Source: Spiroplasma clarkii
GTDB lineage: Bacteria > Bacillota_I > Bacilli_A > Mycoplasmatales > Mycoplasmataceae
NCBI RefSeq assembly: GCF_002795265.1
Contig: NZ_CP024870.1
Location: 1,054,001 to 1,118,000, forward strand
Length of the DNA: 64,000 nt
Reading direction: 5' to 3'
Shown: one piece after another, positions 43,432-56,944 of the stretch
How the letters are laid out: each line of letters opens with the position of its first letter
How positions within the stretch are numbered: position 1 is the first letter of the stretch
Position numbers and translations under genes: made by a program
Notes under the pieces: generated by a model
What the model was told of the DNA's origin: nothing
Databases searched by the model: none
What the model saw: the letters and a program-made list of their open reading frames with translations, nothing else

Positions 43432-44715
43432 CTAACCATTGTTTTGGTACAAGAAATCAATGATTTTTTCTTTAATTAGATCTTCTTTAACTTGATCTTC
43501 AGGTAAAAATCCTTTAATCATTTCAGCTTCAACACCAAATTGTTTTGCCAACACTTCATATTTTGCTGCAACTTCTTCAGGAGTAAATTCAAATTTCTCA
43601 TTATTTCTAACTTTATCAGTTACTAAGTGACTTGAAATACGACGTTTTGCATCATCCACTAATTCCTCTTTAATGGCTGCATCTGTTAAACCAGTTTGTT
43701 TTTTGTAATCTTTCATAGTTAATTTTTGTGAAGCTACTCGGGCTTCAAATTCTTTATATAAATTCTCAACTTCTTTATCAATAGCAATTTTTGGTAATTC
43801 AATTTTTGAATTTGCAATAATTATGTCAATTACTTGGTTAACAAATTGATTTTTTAGGTTAGTAGTTTTTTGCTTAATAATTTCAGATGTTACAAAGTCA
43901 ACTAATTCTTTGTAAGTGTTGATGTTAGGCAGATTTAAATCTTTTGCCAATTCATCATCTTTGGCAGGTAATTCTCTTTGTTTAATTGTTTTAATATCTA
44001 AAATAAATTTAGCTTTCTTACCACTTAATTCAGGAGTGTAATCTTCTGGGAAAGTCACAGCAATTGTTGATTCTCCAATTTTTTTACCAATCATAGCATC
44101 TTCAAAACCTGGAATCATTTGTTTTGAACCAATTACTAATCTAAAGTCTAAACCTTTTCCACCTTTAAAGGGCTTGTCATCAATAAATCCTTCAAAGTCA
44201 AAGACAACAACATCACCAACTGCTACTGTTAGGTCTTCTTTATCTTTTTCTAGTGCAAAACGAGATTGGTACTGTTCAATTGCTCCATCAATTTCTTCAG
44301 CAGTTGCTTCAAAAGTTTGTTTTACCAATTCTTTTGCTTTAATTCCTGTGTATTTACCAATTTCAATTTCTGGTTTTAAATCAAAGACAAAGTCAATTGT
44401 ACATGACTCTTCACTTATTTTTACTGGGGTTGGCACTGGTGAAGTAAATGGTTGAATTTCTGACTTTTGAGCACTTGCAAATTCTCAAGCATCTTCTAAA
44501 ATCACTTGGATTGCTGCTTTTAAGTATTTGGCCGGGGTTAGAAATTGTTCAACTTTTGCTTTTGGAACTTTACCCTTTCTAAATCCAGGGATTTCAATAT
44601 CTGCGGCAACCTTACTTTTTCCTTTTTTAATAGCATTTTTTCAATCATCGCCATTAATTTCAACTGTTCAAACTCCTTGACCTTTTTGAGTTAATTTCTT
44701 AGCATTAAATTTCAT
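43432..44715 (-). CDS. tig: Trigger factor
   Basis: A 427-aa ribosome-bound chaperone and prolyl isomerase. The ribosome-binding loop signature is GFRKGKVPK (N-terminal domain); the FKBP-like domain includes VGDVVVFDFEGFIDDKPFKG and LVIGSKQMIPGFEDAMIG; the C-terminal arms follow. WTVEINGDDW contains TGA Trp. Start 44715 with AGGAGG 11 bases upstream and TATAAT at about 44755. Monocistronic. Confidence 0.97.
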
Positions 44716-44768
44716 TTAATATTTGCCTCCTATATATTTCATACAATTCTTATTATAGCAAAATAAAC

Positions 44769-45401
44769 TTAGTTTTTTTGCAATTTGTTTGCTAACTTGT
44801 CTTCAAATACAGATAAATTAGCTTCCAGGTCTAAAATCTTCTCTTTTGTGGAAGTATGTAGACTGAGATTATACTCTGTTCGGGTTACAGTGATAAACAA
44901 TCTAGTAATTTGGTACAAACTTTCAGAAATACTTTTTGTTAATTGCACCAAATTTTCATACAAAGATCTTGTAAAGTAAGTTTTTTGTAAATCTAACAGT
45001 ACTAAACCTAATTCTAAAATTAGTTGCCATTCATTAGTTTGGTGACGAATTTTATAGATCAAGTTTTGTTCAATTGCTTCAAATAAATCAGGTTCACTAG
45101 TGTTTGGATCATTTAGTTCTACTGTAAAGTCAACACTTTGTAGCTTTTTAAAATTATATCGACTCTCAATTAAATCACTATTAATTTTTTTTATAATCTT
45201 TTTCAATACTCGCAAATGTTTTTCTGTTTTAAATAGCTCAAAAATAGCACTAAACATTGCATTATAAAAATCATATTTTGCCAATTCTTTGCTTCACAAG
45301 TGAAAAAAACAGCACCAACAGCAACTTTGTTCTAAACAAATTGTTTTATAAATTGCACAAGAACAGTTTTGACGATTAGGAGTTTCACAACTACAACACA
45401 T
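44769..45401 (-). CDS. Unknown protein with Cys-rich N-terminus
   Basis: A 210-aa protein. Start at 45401 (MCCSCETPNRQNCSC) is supported by AAGAAGG 7 bases upstream; the shorter TTG start at 45284 has none. Ten cysteines lie in the first 31 residues, ending in a SCCWCC cluster, a density otherwise absent from this proteome. Residues 45-210 are helical and charged (LKKIIKKINSDLIESRYNFKKL; a Leu/Thr-rich end without cysteines). The Cys cluster could bind Zn, Fe-S or haem-like ligands, or anchor the protein; no known motif matches. It follows the 317-aa membrane-anchored gene by 137 bases. Confidence 0.75.
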
Positions 45402-45510
45402 GTGTTTGCCTTCTTTCTAGTTTTCATTAGTGAGTTATGAATCTATTATAAATCAAAAAGATGTAGTAAAACAAAAAATGACCCAATTATCTAATAGATA
45501 GCCTAATAAA

Positions 45511-45531
45511 AAAAATGCCAAAAAGCATTAA
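45511..45531 (-). terminator. Small terminator after the 317-aa gene
   Basis: AATGC-TTTTTG-GCATTTTTTTT on the minus strand, shortly after the stop; weak stem. Confidence 0.6.
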
Positions 45532-45537
45532 TGATCA

Positions 45538-46491
45538 TTATTGACTTTGTTGAATTAAATTGTGAAGACTTGCTTCATCAATCTCTTCCATGTTTTTTAA
45601 TTTTTTTTGTAATATTGACAAGACCTGATGATTATTTTTTAACTTTTTAACATTCATTTTCTTAATTAAATATTCATATTTTTGTCTTAAAAAGAGTTTT
45701 TTTAAAAAATCATCATAAATAAACATTTTCATATATTCTTGACGACTAACTGCATCAATTTTTCAGTCTTTACCTTTACTTGCAATTTCAGCCATACCAG
45801 ATTTTAAAACAGCTTGGTAAAGTTCTGCCACCTCATCAAAAGCTAGTTTAAAAGCATTATTAATTAAGGTCTCAAATTCTTGATTTGGTTCAATTTTATA
45901 AAGTGATTTTTGCTCTTCATCTAAAACTGCAGCAATTGTATATGGGAAAATATAATTTAAACCATAATGGGAAAGAATATTGCGCATTTCTCGCACAAAA
46001 ATGAAAAAGTATTTGTAAAAAAAGTATTCAGGTTCATTTGTTAACTTAAAAATCTTAGCATAACAAGTCTGAGCGATTTTTTTATACTTATTTCATCATA
46101 AGTTCTCCAAAATGTTATTGTATTTTTTTAAATTTGCCATAATTTGCTTGCTACTAGCATAGCTTGTTTTGTCAAAAATAAACTTATTTGTATTGACAAA
46201 GTTAGAGTGGAAAAAACCAATTGCAAAATTTTCTTGATAACCAAAGAATCTCATTTGGTAATCATCAACTTGACCATTCATTCAAAGTTTTTCAAGCTCT
46301 CCAGCTGCAGAAATTCACCATTTTGCCTTCTTTGTGCTGTTATTTTCAGAAGTAATCCCAGCAATTGCAAAACTAGCTTTTCTTTTTTGCTGTTTTTTCT
46401 TAATAATCAAAACAAGTACTCAAATTAATATAAGAACTACTGCTAAAAAGCCACTAAAACTAGCAATAAATATAAGGATTTGATTAGTCAT
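45538..46491 (-). CDS. Membrane-anchored protein of unknown function, 317 aa
   Basis: A single N-terminal membrane helix (about residues 4-30: ILIFIASFSGFLAVVLILIWVLVLII) followed by a KKKQQKRK stop-transfer, so the large remainder is cytoplasmic. It is helical and aromatic (WWISAAGELEKLWMNGQ; EYFFYKYFFIFVREMRN), with a Lys-rich end. Many Trp codons are TGA. Shine-Dalgarno AAAGGAGGTCC 7 bases before ATG is excellent. Family not recognised. Part of a run of four unknown genes. Confidence 0.75.
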
Positions 46492-46520
46492 TTAAGAGGA
46501 CCTCCTTTTATAAAACTATC

Positions 46521-47708
46521 TTACTTTGCTTCATTTTTAGCATTAGCCATTTTTTTAATTGTTTCAGCTTTTGGTGTTGTTCCACCTTTTCTTCTCAATT
46601 TTTTTTCATATTTTTTTCTTTGTCTATTAACTTTTTTCAAAACCCCTTGAGGTTTTTCATGAATTAAAACATAAATACTTGGAACCCCATATTTTGCTTT
46701 AATTGTATTTCAAAATGAATAGCAACGGTTTTTTGGATTTGTAAGTTCTTCAACCAAATAAATATCATTGCCAATTCTAAAATCAGTTGGATCAATTTCA
46801 AACTGCATTGATGGGCGTTTGTCATCTTCTCCTGTTGGTTTGAATTCAGATGCTTTCTTTTGGTCTCTTTCAACTAATGATTCAGTTCTTGTTTTACCAT
46901 ATAATTCCAATCATAAACGTTCTTTTTCTCTTTGTTCTTTTTCATAATCTCGATCAACTGCAGTAATTTTAATGTCTTTATCTTGAGCTTTTGCTTTAGT
47001 TTTGGCATTTTCTTTGGCATCACTTTTTGCCTTAGCTGAGGCTGCTTTTTTAGCAGCAAGTTCTGCTTGTTTTTTTGCCTTAGCTTCTTTTAGCGCTTTT
47101 GCTTCAGCAGCTTTTTGTTTGGCAAGTTGAGCTTTTAATGCTTTTGCTTCAGCTTCTTTTTTTTGTGCCTCTTTAATTGCTTGTCTTTCTCTTTCTTCTG
47201 CTTCTTTTATCATTTTAGTAAAATTTGTTTCTTTCTCTTTAACTACTTTTGGTTTTTTAGTACCTGAAGTTGTTGATTTATTTACCATAGCAACTGGTGT
47301 TCCTAATTCAAGTCTTTTTTCAGTATTTTCAAACTTTACTCGATTTGCTTTTGTAGCACCGAGATTTATTTTTTTAGTATCAGTATTTTCTACTAAAATT
47401 TGTTGAATTTTTAAAACATTTGATTTTTTTTCATTAAACTCCATTTTGCGGCGATCCATCAAAATTTTGTTTCTCACATCATCTGCTTTAACTGCTTGGG
47501 CATTTAGTTGTTCTTCTTCATTTTCTAGTAAAAAGAAAATGTATTCTAAAATTTCTAAGCGTACAGCAGCATCATATGATTCATATTCTTGAGCAAATAA
47601 TGCAATTGTTTGAGTTGTTAAACGTTTTTCAATTAGGCCTTTAATCCTAGCCTTGGTTATGTTTGAAATTAATTTAAAATCCTTCGAAGTTTTTTTAATT
47701 GTTCCCAT
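46521..47708 (-). CDS. Lys/Ala-rich coiled-coil protein, 395 aa
   Basis: Start MGTIKKTSKDFKLIS at 47708 with GGAGG 9 bases upstream; a TTG 36 bases earlier has none. The N-terminal 90 residues may be globular (KARIKGLIEKRLTTQTIALFAQEYESYDAAVRL). Residues 170-260 are nearly continuous Lys/Ala/Glu helix (AEAKALKAQLAKQKAAEAKAL), then a second region (LYGKTRTESLVERDQKKASEF ... IGNDIYLVEELTNPKNRC) and a basic tail. Such stretches fit cytoskeletal or DNA-associated structural proteins; no family match. In tandem with the 594-aa protein upstream. Confidence 0.75.
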
Positions 47709-47782
47709 GTCATATTCCTCCATATATTCAGATAATTTTAGCAAAAAATGGACTAGTTAACTCAAACTTGCCCATCATTTGA

Positions 47783-49567
47783 TTATTTTATATTTTTTGT
47801 GAATTTTCTACTAATTTTTTCAATTCTATTCTTACGTTTCTCATTTTCAATTTTTGCCACTGTTTCTGCTCTCTTTTCTAACTCAATAAATTTATAAGTT
47901 TTTTTAGCAGCAACTAGTGATTCATCAAAAACTCGGTCATCATTTGCTTTGGTAAAGTAGGCTTTCATTTTCAATTCAGTTCTCTTGATCATTTCTTGTT
48001 CATGTCTTATCTGTGCATCAATTGAAGCAATTTCTGATCTGTATTTTGCATCTCTTTCAAAACGTCTTTGCCTTTCTAAACGTAAGACTGATGCCACACG
48101 TTTTTCTTCTGCCCTTTTAATTTGACGTTCTTTCATTAATTCAATTAATCTTTGACGTTCATGCAATCTTCTTAAACGATCTGCTTTTTCAATAGCTTTT
48201 AAGTTAATATCTTCACGTTTTTTAGCACGATTTAGTTCCCTAGCCTCAGCCATTCTTCGTGCACGAGCCACAATGTAACTATTAGATCTTTCTAACTTCA
48301 TCATAGTAATACGGTGGCGACGTTCATTTCTTAATTCTCTTAAGAATTCAATTTTTTCAGTCATTTCATCAAGAGTTTTAATTTCTTGTTGATTATTATC
48401 TAAAATTTCTTGCATTGCTGGTCGTTTGCTTAAATCAACAGAAACTTGGTAGTTCCCAATTGGTTTAATTTCATGATAAGGTTTTGAACCAACTGAAACT
48501 TCACTTTCAAATGCTTGCCCCACTGCAGGCATTTTGTCTGGATTTGTGGTAATTTCAAAACCTTCTTTTGAGTGAATGTTTCGTTTGCTTGGATCAATTC
48601 CTAAATCACCTTCATACATATATTTGTTAATTGGTGAATTAACATATTGGTATTCTGTGGTTTGTGCTTCAGGATTTAAAGCTGATTGGAAAAAATCAAT
48701 TCCCAAAGTTACTTCTGGTTCAGCTAATTCTGAGGTTGGCACTTGTTCAATTTCTGCTTCATCAAAATCAATGTTGTTCACTGTGTTGAACTCTTCACGA
48801 GTCATATCTTCATCAATCACAAAACCATGTTTTGGTGTAGTGTCTGTCAAGGTTGCAGCCTCTCTGACAAATGAATCAGTGTCATTGACAAAATCCTCTA
48901 AACTTGGATCAGGTACTGGACTGCTAGTTAAATTATCAGTTTCAGGTACTTCATTATATCTAAGTGTTGATGAAGTGTCAGTGCTAGCTTTATTTGACAA
49001 GATACTTTCTGGCATTCCAAGACCATTGCTTTCAGCATCATTTAATAAATTTTCAATTTCCATTATATTTTTACCAGTTTTTGGTTGGGCTGTGAAATTA
49101 AATTGCTCAACATCAATATCTGTTTTGTAACCTGCACGATTTAAAATTTCTTCTCTTGTATTACGGTTACTTGATTGAGATGTTGAAAGTCTAGACATAA
49201 AAACTTGACGTTTAGCATCAGGGGTTGTTGGTTCTTGTCTGACATCAAGTCTATCTTTTCAACCACTGATTCCTTTGTCAATTTTTTTAGATTCAGATGA
49301 GTAGTTTTTTCAAAAATGTTTAAACAGTCTGTTAAATTCAACTTCTCATAATTCTACTAAATTAATTTTTCTTGAATCACTATCTGGAAGTGATTCAATG
49401 CGGTCATATGATGAAAGCAACTTTTTGTAGTTTTCATCATTTTGTAAATTATATTTATGCACCAAGGCTAGTGATTTTGGGGTGAAATGTTGTCACACAT
49501 ACCCTTTTTCACTTGTAGATTCACTTGAATTTTTTGTTACTGTGGTTGCTTTTTTTCCCGAAGCCAT
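47783..49567 (-). CDS. Large coiled-coil protein, 594 aa
   Basis: Starts MASGKKATTVTKNSS with GGAGGT upstream. Residues 1-130 are moderately folded with several TGA Trp codons (VWQHFTPKSLALVHKYN); 130-400 are Ser/Thr/Asp-rich, probably disordered; 400-590 form an Arg/Glu/Lys helix (RRLHERQRLIELMKERQIKR). No membrane segment. Architecture (folded head, spacer, long basic coiled coil) resembles structural or scaffold proteins. First gene of the four-gene unknown cluster, 74 bases before the Lys/Ala-rich coiled-coil gene. Confidence 0.8.
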
Positions 49568-49671
49568 AGTTCTACCTCCTAAAAAATTTATTTTAATTTA
49601 TAAATATTATACACTATTTTTCACTTTTTTGCATACCTATGTTATAATCATATGTAATTTCTAGATAAAAA

Positions 49672-49691
49672 AAACAAAACTAAGTTTTGTT
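49672..49691 (-). terminator. Terminator of the efp operon
   Basis: ACAAAACT-TAGTTTTGT-TTTTTTT on the minus strand, after the Asp23-like gene. Confidence 0.85.
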
Positions 49692-49703
49692 TGACATATT
49701 TTC

Positions 49704-49997
49704 TTAATTTTTAATATAAACAAAAGCAATATTTTTAGGCTTAAGCCCAATTGCATTTTCAATTGCAAAAACAATTGAGTTATTTAATTTTAACTCATCA
49801 ATTTCTAATTTCTTGTGGATGTTGGCAAAAAGTTTTACCAAAACAAATAAATGATCATCATGAAGTAAATTAGTTTCGATTTCGAATTTCTCTAAATCTC
49901 TCACATTATTCATAACAACAAATTCAATAACTTTATTAAGAATACGTTGGTCAACCTCTAAATTACCACGAGCATTTCTTTCTAATAAAATATACAT
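49704..49997 (-). CDS. Asp23/Gls24-like small protein
   Basis: A 97-aa protein next to efp. ERNARGNLEVDQRILNKVIEFVVMNN fits the start of Asp23/Gls24 (YqhY-type) proteins, where a G-x-I/L-x-h-x..V-I..h-h segment is typical; LKPKNIAFVYIKN is the final strand. In B. subtilis yqhY lies in the efp-acc-nusB region, supporting the call. YqhY-type proteins have been linked to acetyl-CoA carboxylase control; here no acc genes are near. Low to moderate certainty. Confidence 0.55.
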   Translation of the reverse strand: MYILLERNARGNLEVDQRILNKVIEFVVMNNVRDLEKFEIETNLLHDDHLFVLVKLFANIHKKLEIDELKLNNSIVFAIENAIGLKPKNIAFVYIKN

Positions 49998-50639: not shown

Positions 50640-51608
50640 TTAGACCTTTTTATATGGTTTTTCACAAAACATTCAAGTGATGCGAAAAGGTGAATTTGGA
50701 AAATCAAAACTTCCAGCACTTGTCATACTTTTACCAGCTCTTTGTAGTTCTAAAATTTTGATGTAACCATCCTTAACTTTGACTGTGATTCCCTCTTTAT
50801 CAACATTTATAATCATTCCAGGACTTGAAGTAATATTTAAAGCACTAACCTTTTCATCACTACTAACCACTCTGGCTTGTTTTATTTTAATTCTTTCTTC
50901 AAATAAATATGTGTAAGCCACTGGTTTAGGGCTTAAACATCTAATAAAGTTAACAACACTTGTAGAATCTTGCTCTCAATTAATAACCTCTTGGTCATTG
51001 GTTAAATTATAAGCAAAGGAAACTTTGGTTTCATCTTGGGGAGTTCCCACAATTGTTTTTTGAAAAATTGCTAACAAGTATTTTGCTAGCATACTTTGTC
51101 CAAGTTTACCTAATTTTTCAAATAAACTTCCTGCATCATCACTTGGAGCAATTGCAATTTCTTCTTGTGCATAGACTTCACCAGCATCCATTTTTTTAAC
51201 CATTTTCATTAATGAAATACCAGTTTTGGCATCACCATTTTTAATTGCATATTGGATAGGACTACCTCCACGATATTTTGGTAATAATGAGGCATGAACA
51301 TTAATAGCATTTTCAAATAAATTTAAAACTTTTTCAGGGATAAACTGCCCAAAAGCACAAGTAATTAAAAAATCTGGTTTTAATGCTGCAAGTTCATCAT
51401 AAATTGCACCAACTTTTTCTGGTTGAAAAACTTGATATCCTTGTTGCTCTGCATATACTTTAACTGGAGTTGGAACTATTTGTTTTTTTCTGCCTTGAAT
51501 TCGATCTGGTTGACTAATTACCCCAACAATTTTTAAATCTAATTGTTCAAGTGCTTGTAAAATCTCTACTGCAATTTGGGGTGTACCACAAAATATTACT
51601 TTATACAT
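50640..51608 (-). CDS. fmt: Methionyl-tRNA formyltransferase
   Basis: A 322-aa enzyme that formylates initiator Met-tRNA with 10-formyl-THF. FCGTPQIAVEIL start, catalytic region NVHASLLPKYRGGSPIQ, and MKKMDAGEVYAQEEI; the C-terminal OB-like domain follows and ends FCEKPYKKV after a TGA Trp. Its ATG lies in the end of the DUF2779 gene (13-base overlap). Confidence 0.97.
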
Positions 51609-53833
51609 TCTTCTTCACCATTAAGTCTTTCTACTGTTTCTTTAAAATCAGGTTTAACTTCTTTTATTAATTTTACTACACTTTGCAGTACCACAACCAT
51701 AGCCAAAGTATCTCGATCACAATATTTTAACATGTCTTCTCTAATAATATTGGTCCAAATTTCAGGAGCAATAACTTTATCCATAAATTGCCTAAAGGTT
51801 GCACTAGCTTTATCACCTTTGTTAATTTTTAGGTCTTGATAACTTAAAGTTGAATCAAGTGCTGGTTGAGTTTTTTTAATTGAGTAACTCCCACAAAACT
51901 CTGGGTCATAAATTAGTCAGTTGTTTTCTTTTAGATTAAAAAAACTCATTAAATCAATTGTGTTTTGATAAATTCATTTTAAAGGTTTATAATACTCAGG
52001 AAATTGTCACATCAACTGTTTTAAAACCATTTTCTCAAAAGCCACATTATATGCCACATAAACCCCAGGTCCACAACTAAAACTATCTTTGATAAAATTT
52101 TGAATGAAATCAACTCGTGGATCTATTAATTCATTAGCAATGAAATTGAAATGCTTCATAGTTTCATTGGGGTGATTAAAATCATAATTTTCATCAGTTA
52201 AGACGTGGATTGAGTATTGAAATGGAATCTGTTGATATGTTTTTGAGCGATTAAAATTTGGAATTGCTCATTTTGCTGTTTCAAAATCATACATGTAAAC
52301 AGGGAATTTATAATAATCTTTAAGTAATTCTAAAATATCTTTCATTTTTGACATTTTTACAATGTCAGTTGGATTTTTTTGATGATTATTTTGCTCATAA
52401 TTGACTGTGACCTTGACAATTCTTTGTGAATTCTCATTGAAATAAAGTTTACCATTTGGTTTATAAAAATCATCAAAGTCAATTTTCTCATAAACATCTG
52501 TCAAATACACCAAACCAGTGTTGTAATAGATTTCAGCTGCATCTTTTTTGAAACGTGTTAATTGAAAAAGATTTGGACGAGTTTTTTCATAATGTCTGAC
52601 CACTGTTTGACAAACAACTTGATCAAATTTGAGATTTTCATTTTTGTAATCAAATTTATATTTGGGGCAAATTGGTTGCAATAAGGTCTCAATGTTATTT
52701 AATTCTAATTGCATTTTATTGATAATTAAATCTAAGTTAATGGTTTTGTTAATGTTTTTAAACATTTCAACAAAATTTATATGTTTGGTTTTAGAACCCA
52801 TATAACACTCACTCACATAAAAAAGTGAATTAATAGCAATATCATCAGGTATTCCAGGTTTGCTGGTGCTTGCAAATTCTTTTTCTAAAAATGGTTCATA
52901 AATCTCAGTTTGAAAGTCAATTTCTTCAAAGTCAGAATTAAAATTAATATCATCAGCATCAAGGATGCCCATTCCGCGATAATAATCAGGATTGATCAAG
53001 CACAATGAAGTCTTAATTACATTATAACCAAGCTTTGTCAGCACATATCATTGGTACATTAGGTCATAAAAATGTTCGGGTTTGTGGTGACTTGAGGCCT
53101 TAACCTCAATGATTTCAACTTGTTTATTGCCATAATTAATTAAAGCATCACATTTGACCCTCATTTTACCTGCTTGATATTCAAAGGTTGGTTCAAATAG
53201 GAGCTTATATTTTTTTTGTTCTAAAATTTTTTGGGTTTTTTCTAAAGCTTCATAGTAAGGTAAACTTTCAAATGAAAATCAACCAAAATCTGTTTTATTT
53301 AAATTGTTTTCTAACTTCAATTGAGAACGTAAATATGCCCTGGCCTCACTACCAACCAAGTTTCCGTCAACAATAGTTTCAGCATCAACATTGTGCATAT
53401 CTAAACCATCAATATTGGCAAACTGAGTTTGCAGCACTTCTTTTTGCATTTGTTCTTCTGGAGTTAAATCAGCTGCAGTTAATAGTCTTTCATAAATTGC
53501 AAATGGATCAAACCCAGTACTTGTATCAAAATCCTCAGCACTATCAAAAACTACTTTCAGATGTGTTTCAATTCTTTGAAAGTGATGCTTAATTTGTAAA
53601 TTGTTTTGTCATGTTCGTCTTGTTGTTAATCGCACAGTGTCATTATGATGTTTGATTTTTTTCTTGATTAAAGCATCTTTTCAAACTGCTCTTAAATTAA
53701 CATTGGTTTTTAATTTTAAAGCAGTTTTAAAATTTTGAAGACTATAAAATATCCAAGCCTCTTTTGGACACTTGACAAAATATCTTTTGAAATCTTCTTT
53801 TGACACCTTATTAGTTAAGACTAAATCTTTCAT
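51596..53833 (-). CDS. DUF2779-family nuclease (RecB/Cas4-like plus RNase H-like exonuclease)
   Basis: A 745-aa protein with two nuclease-like modules. The middle has a PD-(D/E)XK-type pattern: a CDALI strand, then IEVKASSHHK (E-x-K). The C-terminal third has the DEDD-exonuclease pattern: MYDFET (first Asp/Glu), then a PFQYSIH block, AYNVAFEKMVLKQL and YCDRDTLAMV with the last Asp. This matches the DUF2779 family, thought to process nucleic acids. The N-terminus begins FKRYFVKCPKEAW. The second of two tandem ATG codons is preferred for spacing from GAGG. Read through many TGA codons. Operon with fmt, translationally coupled. Confidence 0.8.
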
Positions 53834-53869
53834 CATTCACCTCGAATACTACTTGTTATTATAAATAAA

Positions 53870-53897: not shown

Positions 53898-54503
53898 TTA
53901 TTTACTACGACGAGGTACAAATTTGACTGTACCAGCTTTTTTTTCAGGATCAATAACATTGCTAACAGGAGTTTTTTTAGCTTCAATTCTTAGGGCTTTA
54001 AGTTCTTTTTGTTTTTCTTTAACTTTTTGAGCCTCAAGTTTTGCTCTGTGAACTTCATCAGCTTTTAGTGCTTTTTTTTCTTCTTTTGTTAACTTAACCT
54101 TTTTCTCTGCAATAGCAATTCTTCTTTTGGTATCTTCAATATCTGACTCACCATTAACATTTCAAGTGGTAGTAACTGTTTTACGATCTGCTCTTGTGGT
54201 AATTCCTTCAATTTCAAAGGCTTTAATATCCATTAATTTATTGGTTTTAGCATCATACATTTGCACAATTACATCAAAAACATCTCGATATTTGTATTCA
54301 GGTCCTTTGCGGGCAAATACTTTTTCATATTCAATTCTTAGGTTTTTTTGATTAAAATTTGCTGCCAAGTAGTTTTTAATTTCCTCTTTAACTACTTTTT
54401 TACGTTTTGCTTGTTCTTTTTTTTGACTTTTTTTACTTGTTATTTGAGCAATAATAATAAATGCTAATACAACAACAACTGCCACAATAATTACATATTG
54501 CAT
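53898..54503 (-). CDS. Membrane-anchored coiled-coil protein, 201 aa
   Basis: N-terminal membrane helix MQYVIIVAVVVVLAFIIIAQ, then KKSQKKEQAKRKK. The middle (NQKNLRIEYEKVFARKGPEYKYRDVFDVIVQMYDAKTNKLM) could be a small beta-rich domain; the end is a Lys/Glu/Ala coiled coil with a basic C-terminus (FVPRRSK). Start ATG 54503 with AAGGAG 8 bases upstream, preferred over a GTG 9 bases earlier that overlaps the site. Cytoplasmic body tethered to the membrane. Family not recognised. Confidence 0.7.
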
Positions 54504-54562
54504 TAATTTCACTCCTTGTTTCCATTATGATTTTAACTTATTTTTAAGATTTTTTACAAAAA

Positions 54563-55693: not shown

Positions 55694-56944
55694 TTACTTT
55701 CCTTTTTGTTTTTTTAACATTCTTTTTTTATCTTTTTTTGTCAATTTTCCTAGTTTATCAATTTCTTTTGACTCACCAAATCAAGCTTCATAGTCACTAA
55801 AATCAAAAGCCTTTTTTGCTTTCTTTTGGTTTTTTTCAGCAGCAGAAACAATGTTATTTAGCATAACAGTTGTTTCCCCACTTGATTCAAAGCGTTGTTT
55901 TTTCTTGCTTTTTGTTCTTTTAGCAACTTCACGCTCCATATCATCTGTTTTATCTGAAACTGTGTAATCTAAAAAACTTGTGTTTAGACGGTGTGAAGTT
56001 TGAGATTTAAAATTATCATTTGTGCTTTTGTTTTTATTTGCAAGTTCTGAAGATAATTCAGTTTCAATTTTTTGAAATAGTTCCTCACTAATTGGTTTTG
56101 GCTGCACTTGCAAAGTGTCTGTTGTGGTTGTGTTTAATAAATCAACCTCATGAGTTTGAGTTTGCCCCTTTTTAGGGTTATTGCTGATTTTTTTCTCAAA
56201 GTTTGAAAAAATATCTTTAATATCACCTGTATTAGTAGTCTGTTCATTGGCAACTGCTTTGGGCTTAATGCTTGGAGTTGGTGCCAGGGTTGGGATTGCT
56301 TCTAAAGTTGCTGAATTTTCAAATTCTGAAACTGGTTTGATTGTTGATGCCTCTTCAACCTTAAAGTTTTTGGTTGGAGCTGGTTTGATTAAATTCTCAC
56401 TAACTGGAGTATTACCAATTAAACTCTGACGAATTTCATCAATTCTTTCTTTTGCTAATCCTGAATTTTGCTTTGTTAAAACATAGTTTTTTAAATGAAC
56501 TTCACAATTTGGTTCATTATTAATTTTGTCAAGCAACTCATCTTTTTGAGATTGTTCTTTTGCATAAGAATTCATTCTCAAATTTAAAATGTTTTCTGGT
56601 AATTTTGATTGTTGTTTAATATTTTGACCATCAAGTACTTTAATTGAGGCAAATTGTTTGACATCAAGATCTGCACGATTTAGGTTAAATTCAAAATCTT
56701 CACCATACTTTAAAAAATGAGAATTGGCATTTTGAATTAAAGTAATTTTTGGCTCATTGTTTAAAGTTTTTTTCTTAGCCAAATCAAAAACTTGTGTCTC
56801 ATCAAAATCCATTGTTAATGAAGTTTCTGTTTCTTCTTCAAATCATGGTTCAGCAATTGGACTAAAATGTTTTTTATCAGTAACTGCATTAATTTCATCT
56901 TGGTCTTGACGATTAATTTTTAAAATTTTAATTTTATCAGCCAT
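55694..56944 (-). CDS. Acidic, disordered protein, 416 aa
   Basis: Start MADKIKILKINRQDQ with GGAGGGG 7 bases upstream. Almost entirely low-complexity: Thr/Pro/Glu/Lys-rich, with NATT/TTTTDT and APTPSIKPKAV stretches, flanked by a short folded-looking start and a Lys-rich coiled tail (KKAKKAFDFSDYEAWFGESKEIDK). Such proteins in mollicutes are often cytoskeletal or cell-shape associated (inference only). Operon with mnmA (6-base gap). Confidence 0.75.

Follow-up and report, generated by a model that had tools for sequence, protein, structure and literature searches.

Within the window analysed here (64,000 nucleotides of Spiroplasma clarkii contig NZ_CP024870.1, positions 1,054,001 to 1,118,000 of the forward strand), four adjacent genes at 44769-49567, referred to below as CC594, KA395, MEM317 and CYS210 (CYS), form a cluster found in one clade and at one locus, which agrees with the lineage-specific character that a first-pass annotation had attributed to it. 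The four open reading frames (ORFs) are real genes under purifying selection and not chance ORFs. We lean tentatively, with a little less than even confidence, towards reading the four products as a scaffold or tether that is specific to this lineage, linked to the membrane and possibly an accessory of the MreB/fibril cytoskeleton.

The four cluster genes

Read under genetic code 4 (TGA = Trp), the region contains four adjacent ORFs on the minus strand, of 594, 395, 317 and 210 amino acids (aa), exactly the sizes initially given for them. Standard-code ORFs were rejected: TGA codons split the cluster genes and code 4 restores them. P97, efp and fmt flank the cluster on one side, tig and lon on the other.

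47783..49567, minus strand: CC594, core gene of the cluster; small N-terminal helical domain (~44-89), acidic low-complexity middle, C-terminal predicted helix (385-593)
46521..47708, minus strand: KA395, ATG at 47708; conserved N-terminal ~100-aa domain (A7), K/A/E linker, conserved C-terminal region
45538..46491, minus strand: MEM317, hydrophobic N-terminal segment (residues ~4-30) and helical domain; HPD motif absent
44769..45401, minus strand: CYS210, 10 Cys within the first 36 residues; genus-restricted
49704..49997, minus strand: P97, flanking gene outside the cluster; near NCBIfam NF045836
43432..44715, minus strand: tig (trigger factor), flanking gene outside the cluster, called from sequence and orthologues

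The gene at 43432..44715 is one that we take, from established family knowledge, to be tig, coding for trigger factor. P97 reached 36.7 bits (E 4e-9) against NF045836, the MMB_0454 family, which is below the 40-bit cut-off.

Homologue searches covered 99 genomes, 20 of them from the window's genus; g1 to g29 are genus labels. The four ORFs are real genes because syntenic orthologues occur in up to 28 of the 99 genomes and because the ratio of non-synonymous to synonymous substitution rates (dN/dS) of the cluster genes is 0.07-0.58, compared with 0.02-0.14 for tig, lon and efp, over seven species pairs, a range that leaves out an eighth pair, the one with genome G013, whose cluster is decayed. 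Pfam and NCBIfam gave no credible family match for any of the four proteins, whether to actin-like or nucleosidase-derived families or, in NCBIfam, to the terminal-organelle models. When PADLOC and PDB-sequence searches were added, a credible family for CC594, KA395 and CYS was still not found. Weak matches to UvrD, PqqD, AcaB, HisB and LAX were discarded, being far under the cut-offs or absent from orthologues. A literature search did not find a paper describing these cluster genes.

Distribution and gene order

CC594 was found in 28 of the 99 genomes, that is in all 20 of the genus and in eight from five other genera. KA395 has matches in 26 genomes and MEM317 in 22, two of the latter (in g3) being J-domain proteins encoded elsewhere in the genome, while CYS has matches in 18, in the genus only. 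A few of the KA395 matches are a second protein that carries the same N-terminal domain (N-domain). The other KA395, MEM317 and CYS matches adjoin CC594, except in G024, where a KA395-like match lies elsewhere. Inside and outside the genus, the partner genes mostly stand directly downstream of CC594 at the same locus. CC594 is the only gene of the four present in every cluster genus, and in g11 the cluster is reduced to CC594 alone (~507 aa). As to the phylogenetic spread, which the first-pass annotation had put forward as a check, the four genes are largely found together at one locus, with the reservation that KA395, MEM317 and CYS have been lost in some genomes and that CYS is confined to the genus.

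In relatives, for which 12-18 kb were read per locus, the order is (mnmA-MEM204-DUF2779-fmt-efp-P97)-CC594-[X]-KA395-MEM317-[Y]-CYS-tig-lon, a few genomes having other genes ahead of CC594. Two extra cluster genes of these relatives, X (~355 aa) and Y (~455 aa), do not occur in the window, nor in roughly half of the genus. X (L108:8241-9314) lies between CC594 and KA395 and Y (L108:11718-13082) between MEM317 and CYS; Y is well conserved, and no family match was obtained for either. None of the four cluster proteins, nor X or Y, matched a PADLOC model of anti-phage defence. In G024, ABC-transporter-like genes are inserted at the cluster locus.

A tree built on tig, lon and efp recovered the cluster genera as monophyletic (ultrafast bootstrap, UFBoot, 95) and as sister to g2-5 and g10 (98), with g8 outside. 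This MreB-poor sister clade is without the cluster, and P97 usually stands there directly before tig. A search with the CC594 profile yielded no convincing match in the Citri-like clade (g8), in g20 or in any further family searched, and a single profile match in the Citri-like clade was dismissed as chance-level. The names Citri-like, Apis-like and sister clade for the g-labelled genera are an interpretation made in this analysis. With this distribution, the cluster may have been gained in the clade that carries it, or earlier and then lost once.

Architecture of CC594, KA395 and CYS210

The N-terminal region of CC594 (25-120) shows 64% identity within the genus. It is followed by an acidic low-complexity middle (121-395, isoelectric point (pI) 4.3), which is variable, with 38% identity for 226-395. 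The most conserved part is 396-560 (78% in the genus, 46-67% in other genera except g11), and the C-terminus is strongly basic (pI 10.4). AlphaFold2, run on two sequences, predicted residues 385-593 as one continuous charged helix of 209 residues (predicted local distance difference test, pLDDT, 92-96 over ~400-530), whose length would be ~31 nm at 0.15 nm per residue.

The 594-aa and 395-aa proteins had first been described as coiled coils, a description that has to be abandoned, no heptad periodicity rising above shuffles. Hydrophobic periodicity at 3.5 (heptad) or 3.67 (hendecad) in CC594 396-560 was not above shuffles in nine orthologues, and neither was the heptad power in KA395 160-250. 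The best 56-residue periodicity windows scored 4.6 for CC594 and 3.9 for KA395, versus 7.8 in a protein taken for comparison because it seems to have heptads. Because neither period stands out from shuffles, the modelled C-terminal segment of CC594 is taken for a charged helix, possibly a single one, and not for a canonical coiled coil. The structural look that had also been noticed is borne out by the predicted 209-residue helix, the length-variable linkers and a membrane segment.

KA395 (pI 9.8) is conserved over its first ~105 residues (47%) and over 251-300, and the K/A/E-rich (Lys/Ala/Glu) linker varies in length, from ~77 to 182 residues among orthologues. In three close species (L116, L117, L136), MEM317 was undetected and KA395 is enlarged to 565-590 aa by a far longer charged linker, as though in compensation. 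Every genome of the genus gives exactly two matches to the KA395 N-domain, KA395 itself and a second protein, of 571-848 aa where read through (including one in g7) and of 845 aa in the window's genome. Several g3 and g5 genomes give one weak match, in acidic proteins of 393-837 aa. For the second, larger charged proteins and for these acidic ones, no Pfam or NCBIfam name was found, and the N-domain looks like an unnamed lineage domain.

L262:3032-5569 (window's genome, ~784031-786568); L222:4678-6870; L223:2930-5476; L256:3436-4617; L258:3446-4930; L259:2916-5429: KA395 N-domain proteins

In CYS210, eight of the ten N-terminal Cys fall in invariant columns (C2, C3, C13, C15, C22, C28, C30 and C31). 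On account of this invariant Cys cluster at the N-terminus, CYS210 probably binds metal.

MEM317 and membrane J-domain co-chaperones

A search with MEM317 weakly matched a J-domain protein of g3. When this J-protein was used as query, it retrieved a clade-wide family with an N-terminal hydrophobic segment, a helical domain and a C-terminal J domain, and it also matched the MEM317 orthologues of G019 and G014. In hhalign comparisons using a MEM317 alignment without the J-proteins, the MEM317 and J-protein families aligned with 98.8% probability (E 4e-17, 223 columns), and MEM317 aligned with the N-domain of the J-protein alone at 98.6% (E 1.2e-15); all other pairs of cluster families stayed below 1%. 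The J-domain PDB matches of profile A3 were not counted, as they come from two J-proteins inside the profile, and the homology was retested without them. No J domain was detected in MEM317, either by profile comparison with the J domain only (0.8%) or by a Pfam DnaJ match. The HPD motif, which is needed for DnaK activation, is missing at the aligned position throughout the MEM317 family.

MEM317 is thus a paralogue of a membrane J-domain co-chaperone without its catalytic domain, loss of the J domain being the simplest reading. The first-pass statement that none of the proteins matches a known family stands as far as Pfam and NCBIfam are concerned and has to be amended for MEM317, which has a J-protein relative by profile comparison. 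A known enzymatic fold, which the first-pass annotation had named as grounds for refutation, did not turn up, as no enzyme was found, but MEM317 derives from, or shares ancestry with, the J-domain co-chaperone family. It has the same ~160-220-residue helical domain as the membrane-anchored J-domain co-chaperones and mostly also the hydrophobic N-terminal segment. The J part of the latter matches the DnaJ PF00226, DjlA and TopJ models, and their gene lies elsewhere, whereas MEM317 is inside the cluster and is without HPD or a recognisable J domain. A search of the window's genome with the g3 J-protein found no full-length membrane J-protein of that kind.

MreB in the cluster genomes and decay of the cluster in G013

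MreB-family matches number 4-9 in every cluster genome (best E 2e-127 or lower) and 1-3 in the g2-5 and g10 genomes (best E between 1e-19 and 2e-61), counts that include, in every genome, some DnaK or other actin-like proteins. The weak matches in g2-5 and g10 are consistent with the loss of fib and mreB reported for the cluster-free sister clade (PMC6117150). The relatives of the window's genome are of the MreB-rich Spiroplasma type; in that genome itself, a PF01048 search did not reveal a fibril-length ORF. An association with the loss of helicity cannot be put forward as a correlation, the cluster-free sister clade being one event and branching beside the cluster clade, not within it.

In G013 (L121:8339-10131), KA395 survives as a pseudogene, neither MEM317 nor CYS is left, and the CC594 frame is still open, with a dN/dS of 0.37 in the eighth species pair. 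CC594 carries 18 unique changes there versus 7 in the sister genome G019 (p=0.04), tig, lon and efp being not significantly different. This decay suggests that the functions of the cluster genes could be linked.

Transcription signals and neighbouring genes

49664..49692, minus strand: terminator-like hairpin after P97 and upstream of CC594, 9-bp A/T-rich stem and T8; fold of 49660-49706 at -5.7 kcal/mol
49606..49611, minus strand: candidate -10 box of CC594, TATAAT, consensus only
45508..45529, minus strand: terminator-like hairpin and T8, after MEM317
45445..45450, minus strand: candidate -10 box of CYS210, TATAAT, consensus only
44752..44757, minus strand: candidate extended -10 of tig (TGCTATAAT), consensus only

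The hairpins after P97 and MEM317, together with the TATAAT boxes, suggest that CC594, KA395 and MEM317 form one transcription unit and CYS a second one, and in view of its candidate extended -10, tig is probably transcribed separately. Neither hairpin was recovered by a separate consensus scan, and a scan for promoter-like sites gave a count not above shuffles, the -10 boxes being called from the consensus alone.

Similar low-complexity or anchored proteins had also been pointed out at 53898-54503 and 55694-56944. Both exist, the first one as 53898-54512, but they belong to unrelated families. The former, MEM204, is a membrane-anchored basic protein between mnmA and DUF2779 with no family name. 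Extending the cluster to this gene is unsupported because MEM204 has a wider distribution, which includes the cluster-free sister clade and g11. The latter, LC416, is a low-complexity protein whose gene separates dnaJ from mnmA in every g1, g9 and g12 genome of which this part was read; at the same position, g3, g5 and g10 have a ~500-aa gene without detectable similarity, and g11 (one genome read) has none. A 746-aa DUF2779/UU173-family protein with a weak Cas4-like nuclease segment (51596-53836) is also kept in the neighbourhood.

Possible functions of the cluster

In the scaffold or tether that we tentatively favour, MEM317 would be a non-catalytic membrane adaptor, KA395 could act as a spacer and the CC594 helix as a rod binding an internal partner, and CYS would be a later accessory. 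Since each cluster-bearing genome has several strong MreB matches, the likeliest internal partner in these wall-less helical cells would be either the MreB/fibril ribbon or some structure at the pole. The ribbon and the polar 'dumbbell' are natural partner candidates (PMC8432965, PMC5289999). A more specific version, which we regard as rather unlikely, is that of an Apis-clade-specific swimming-cytoskeleton accessory, where a CC594 single-helix rod of ~31 nm and KA395 as a length-variable strap would connect the membrane, by way of a co-opted, J-domain-less MEM317, with the MreB/fibril ribbon or the core of the cell tip.

Several observations weigh against a membrane-linked accessory of MreB. 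The Citri-like clade is MreB-rich and yet without the cluster, which therefore is not a general requirement for MreB-based helicity, and the association between cluster and MreB amounts to one phylogenetic event. The joint-decay statistic of G013 is marginal and statistically thin. The g12 orthologues of MEM317 lack the N-terminal hydrophobic segment, so that membrane anchoring is not universal, and some genomes are without MEM317 altogether. The structure model of MEM317 is poor (pLDDT 52), the models being built on two sequences.

A parallel can be drawn with the ribbon of Spiroplasma (fibril, MreB1-5) and with the '7th protein' of the Citri clade, as clade-restricted protein(s) have been put forward there too as companions of MreB motility (PMC10074174). 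The '7th protein' is a lipoprotein of the Citri clade, has its gene beside mreB3 and is missing from the Apis clade (PMC10074174), whereas our cluster sits in the complementary clade and, in the window's genome, away from the MreB matches. The terminal organelle of Mycoplasma pneumoniae (HMW2 rods, TopJ) is alike by analogy only, in that this wall-less mollicute, too, combines long helical proteins with a J-domain-related one (PMC4669176). However, HMW2 has predicted coiled coils and CC594 is without heptads, while the TopJ models match the separate J-protein via its J domain only, which MEM317 lacks. The cluster proteins are also long, helical, charged and low-complexity like bacterial coiled-coil and intermediate-filament-like proteins, but the helical segments of CC594 and KA395 are without heptads.

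One would also wonder whether the cluster could encode a proteostasis or translation-linked membrane complex, one that works alongside trigger factor, Lon and DnaK and helps chaperones, proteolysis or nascent chains at the membrane. The cluster stands directly before tig and lon in nearly all cluster genomes read, usually after efp/P97, MEM317 is kin to a membrane J-domain protein, and charged basic helices (pI about 10) could bind ribosomes. We nevertheless find this explanation unlikely: the sister clade has the same neighbourhood normally without the cluster, an HPD-less MEM317 should not stimulate DnaK, and tig and CYS have -10-like boxes of their own.

More doubtful still is the idea that the genes have no joint function and that the P97-tig interval is a hotspot gathering fast-evolving lineage-specific genes. 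X and Y have been gained or lost, CYS is genus-only, G024 has its ABC-transporter-like insertions and CC594 is the sole gene found in all cluster genera, all of which would suit a hotspot. Yet many species have retained the order CC594-(X)-KA395-MEM317-(Y)-CYS with short gaps, the genes stay under purifying selection, and G013 has lost or broken KA395, MEM317 and CYS while CC594 loosens.

The least probable of these explanations is a nucleoid or division complex, where the basic helical proteins (pI 10.4 for the CC594 C-terminus, 9.8 for KA395) would bind DNA, RNA or FtsZ-type machinery, with MEM317 as membrane tether: the KA395 N-domain stands at the start of another long charged protein in every genus genome and is also present in the sister clade, which is non-helical, so that the domain is not tied to helicity, but in the family searches the cluster proteins matched no known DNA-binding, SMC or divisome family, and basic composition alone is weak evidence.

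To our knowledge, reconstitution work has used MreB and fibril from Citri-side species. The conserved, clade-specific genes for a putative rod, strap and membrane adaptor would provide named candidates for what fastens the Spiroplasma ribbon to the membrane and the polar tip. MEM317 is furthermore an example of a co-chaperone family member that is found, minus its catalytic domain, in a new gene cluster.

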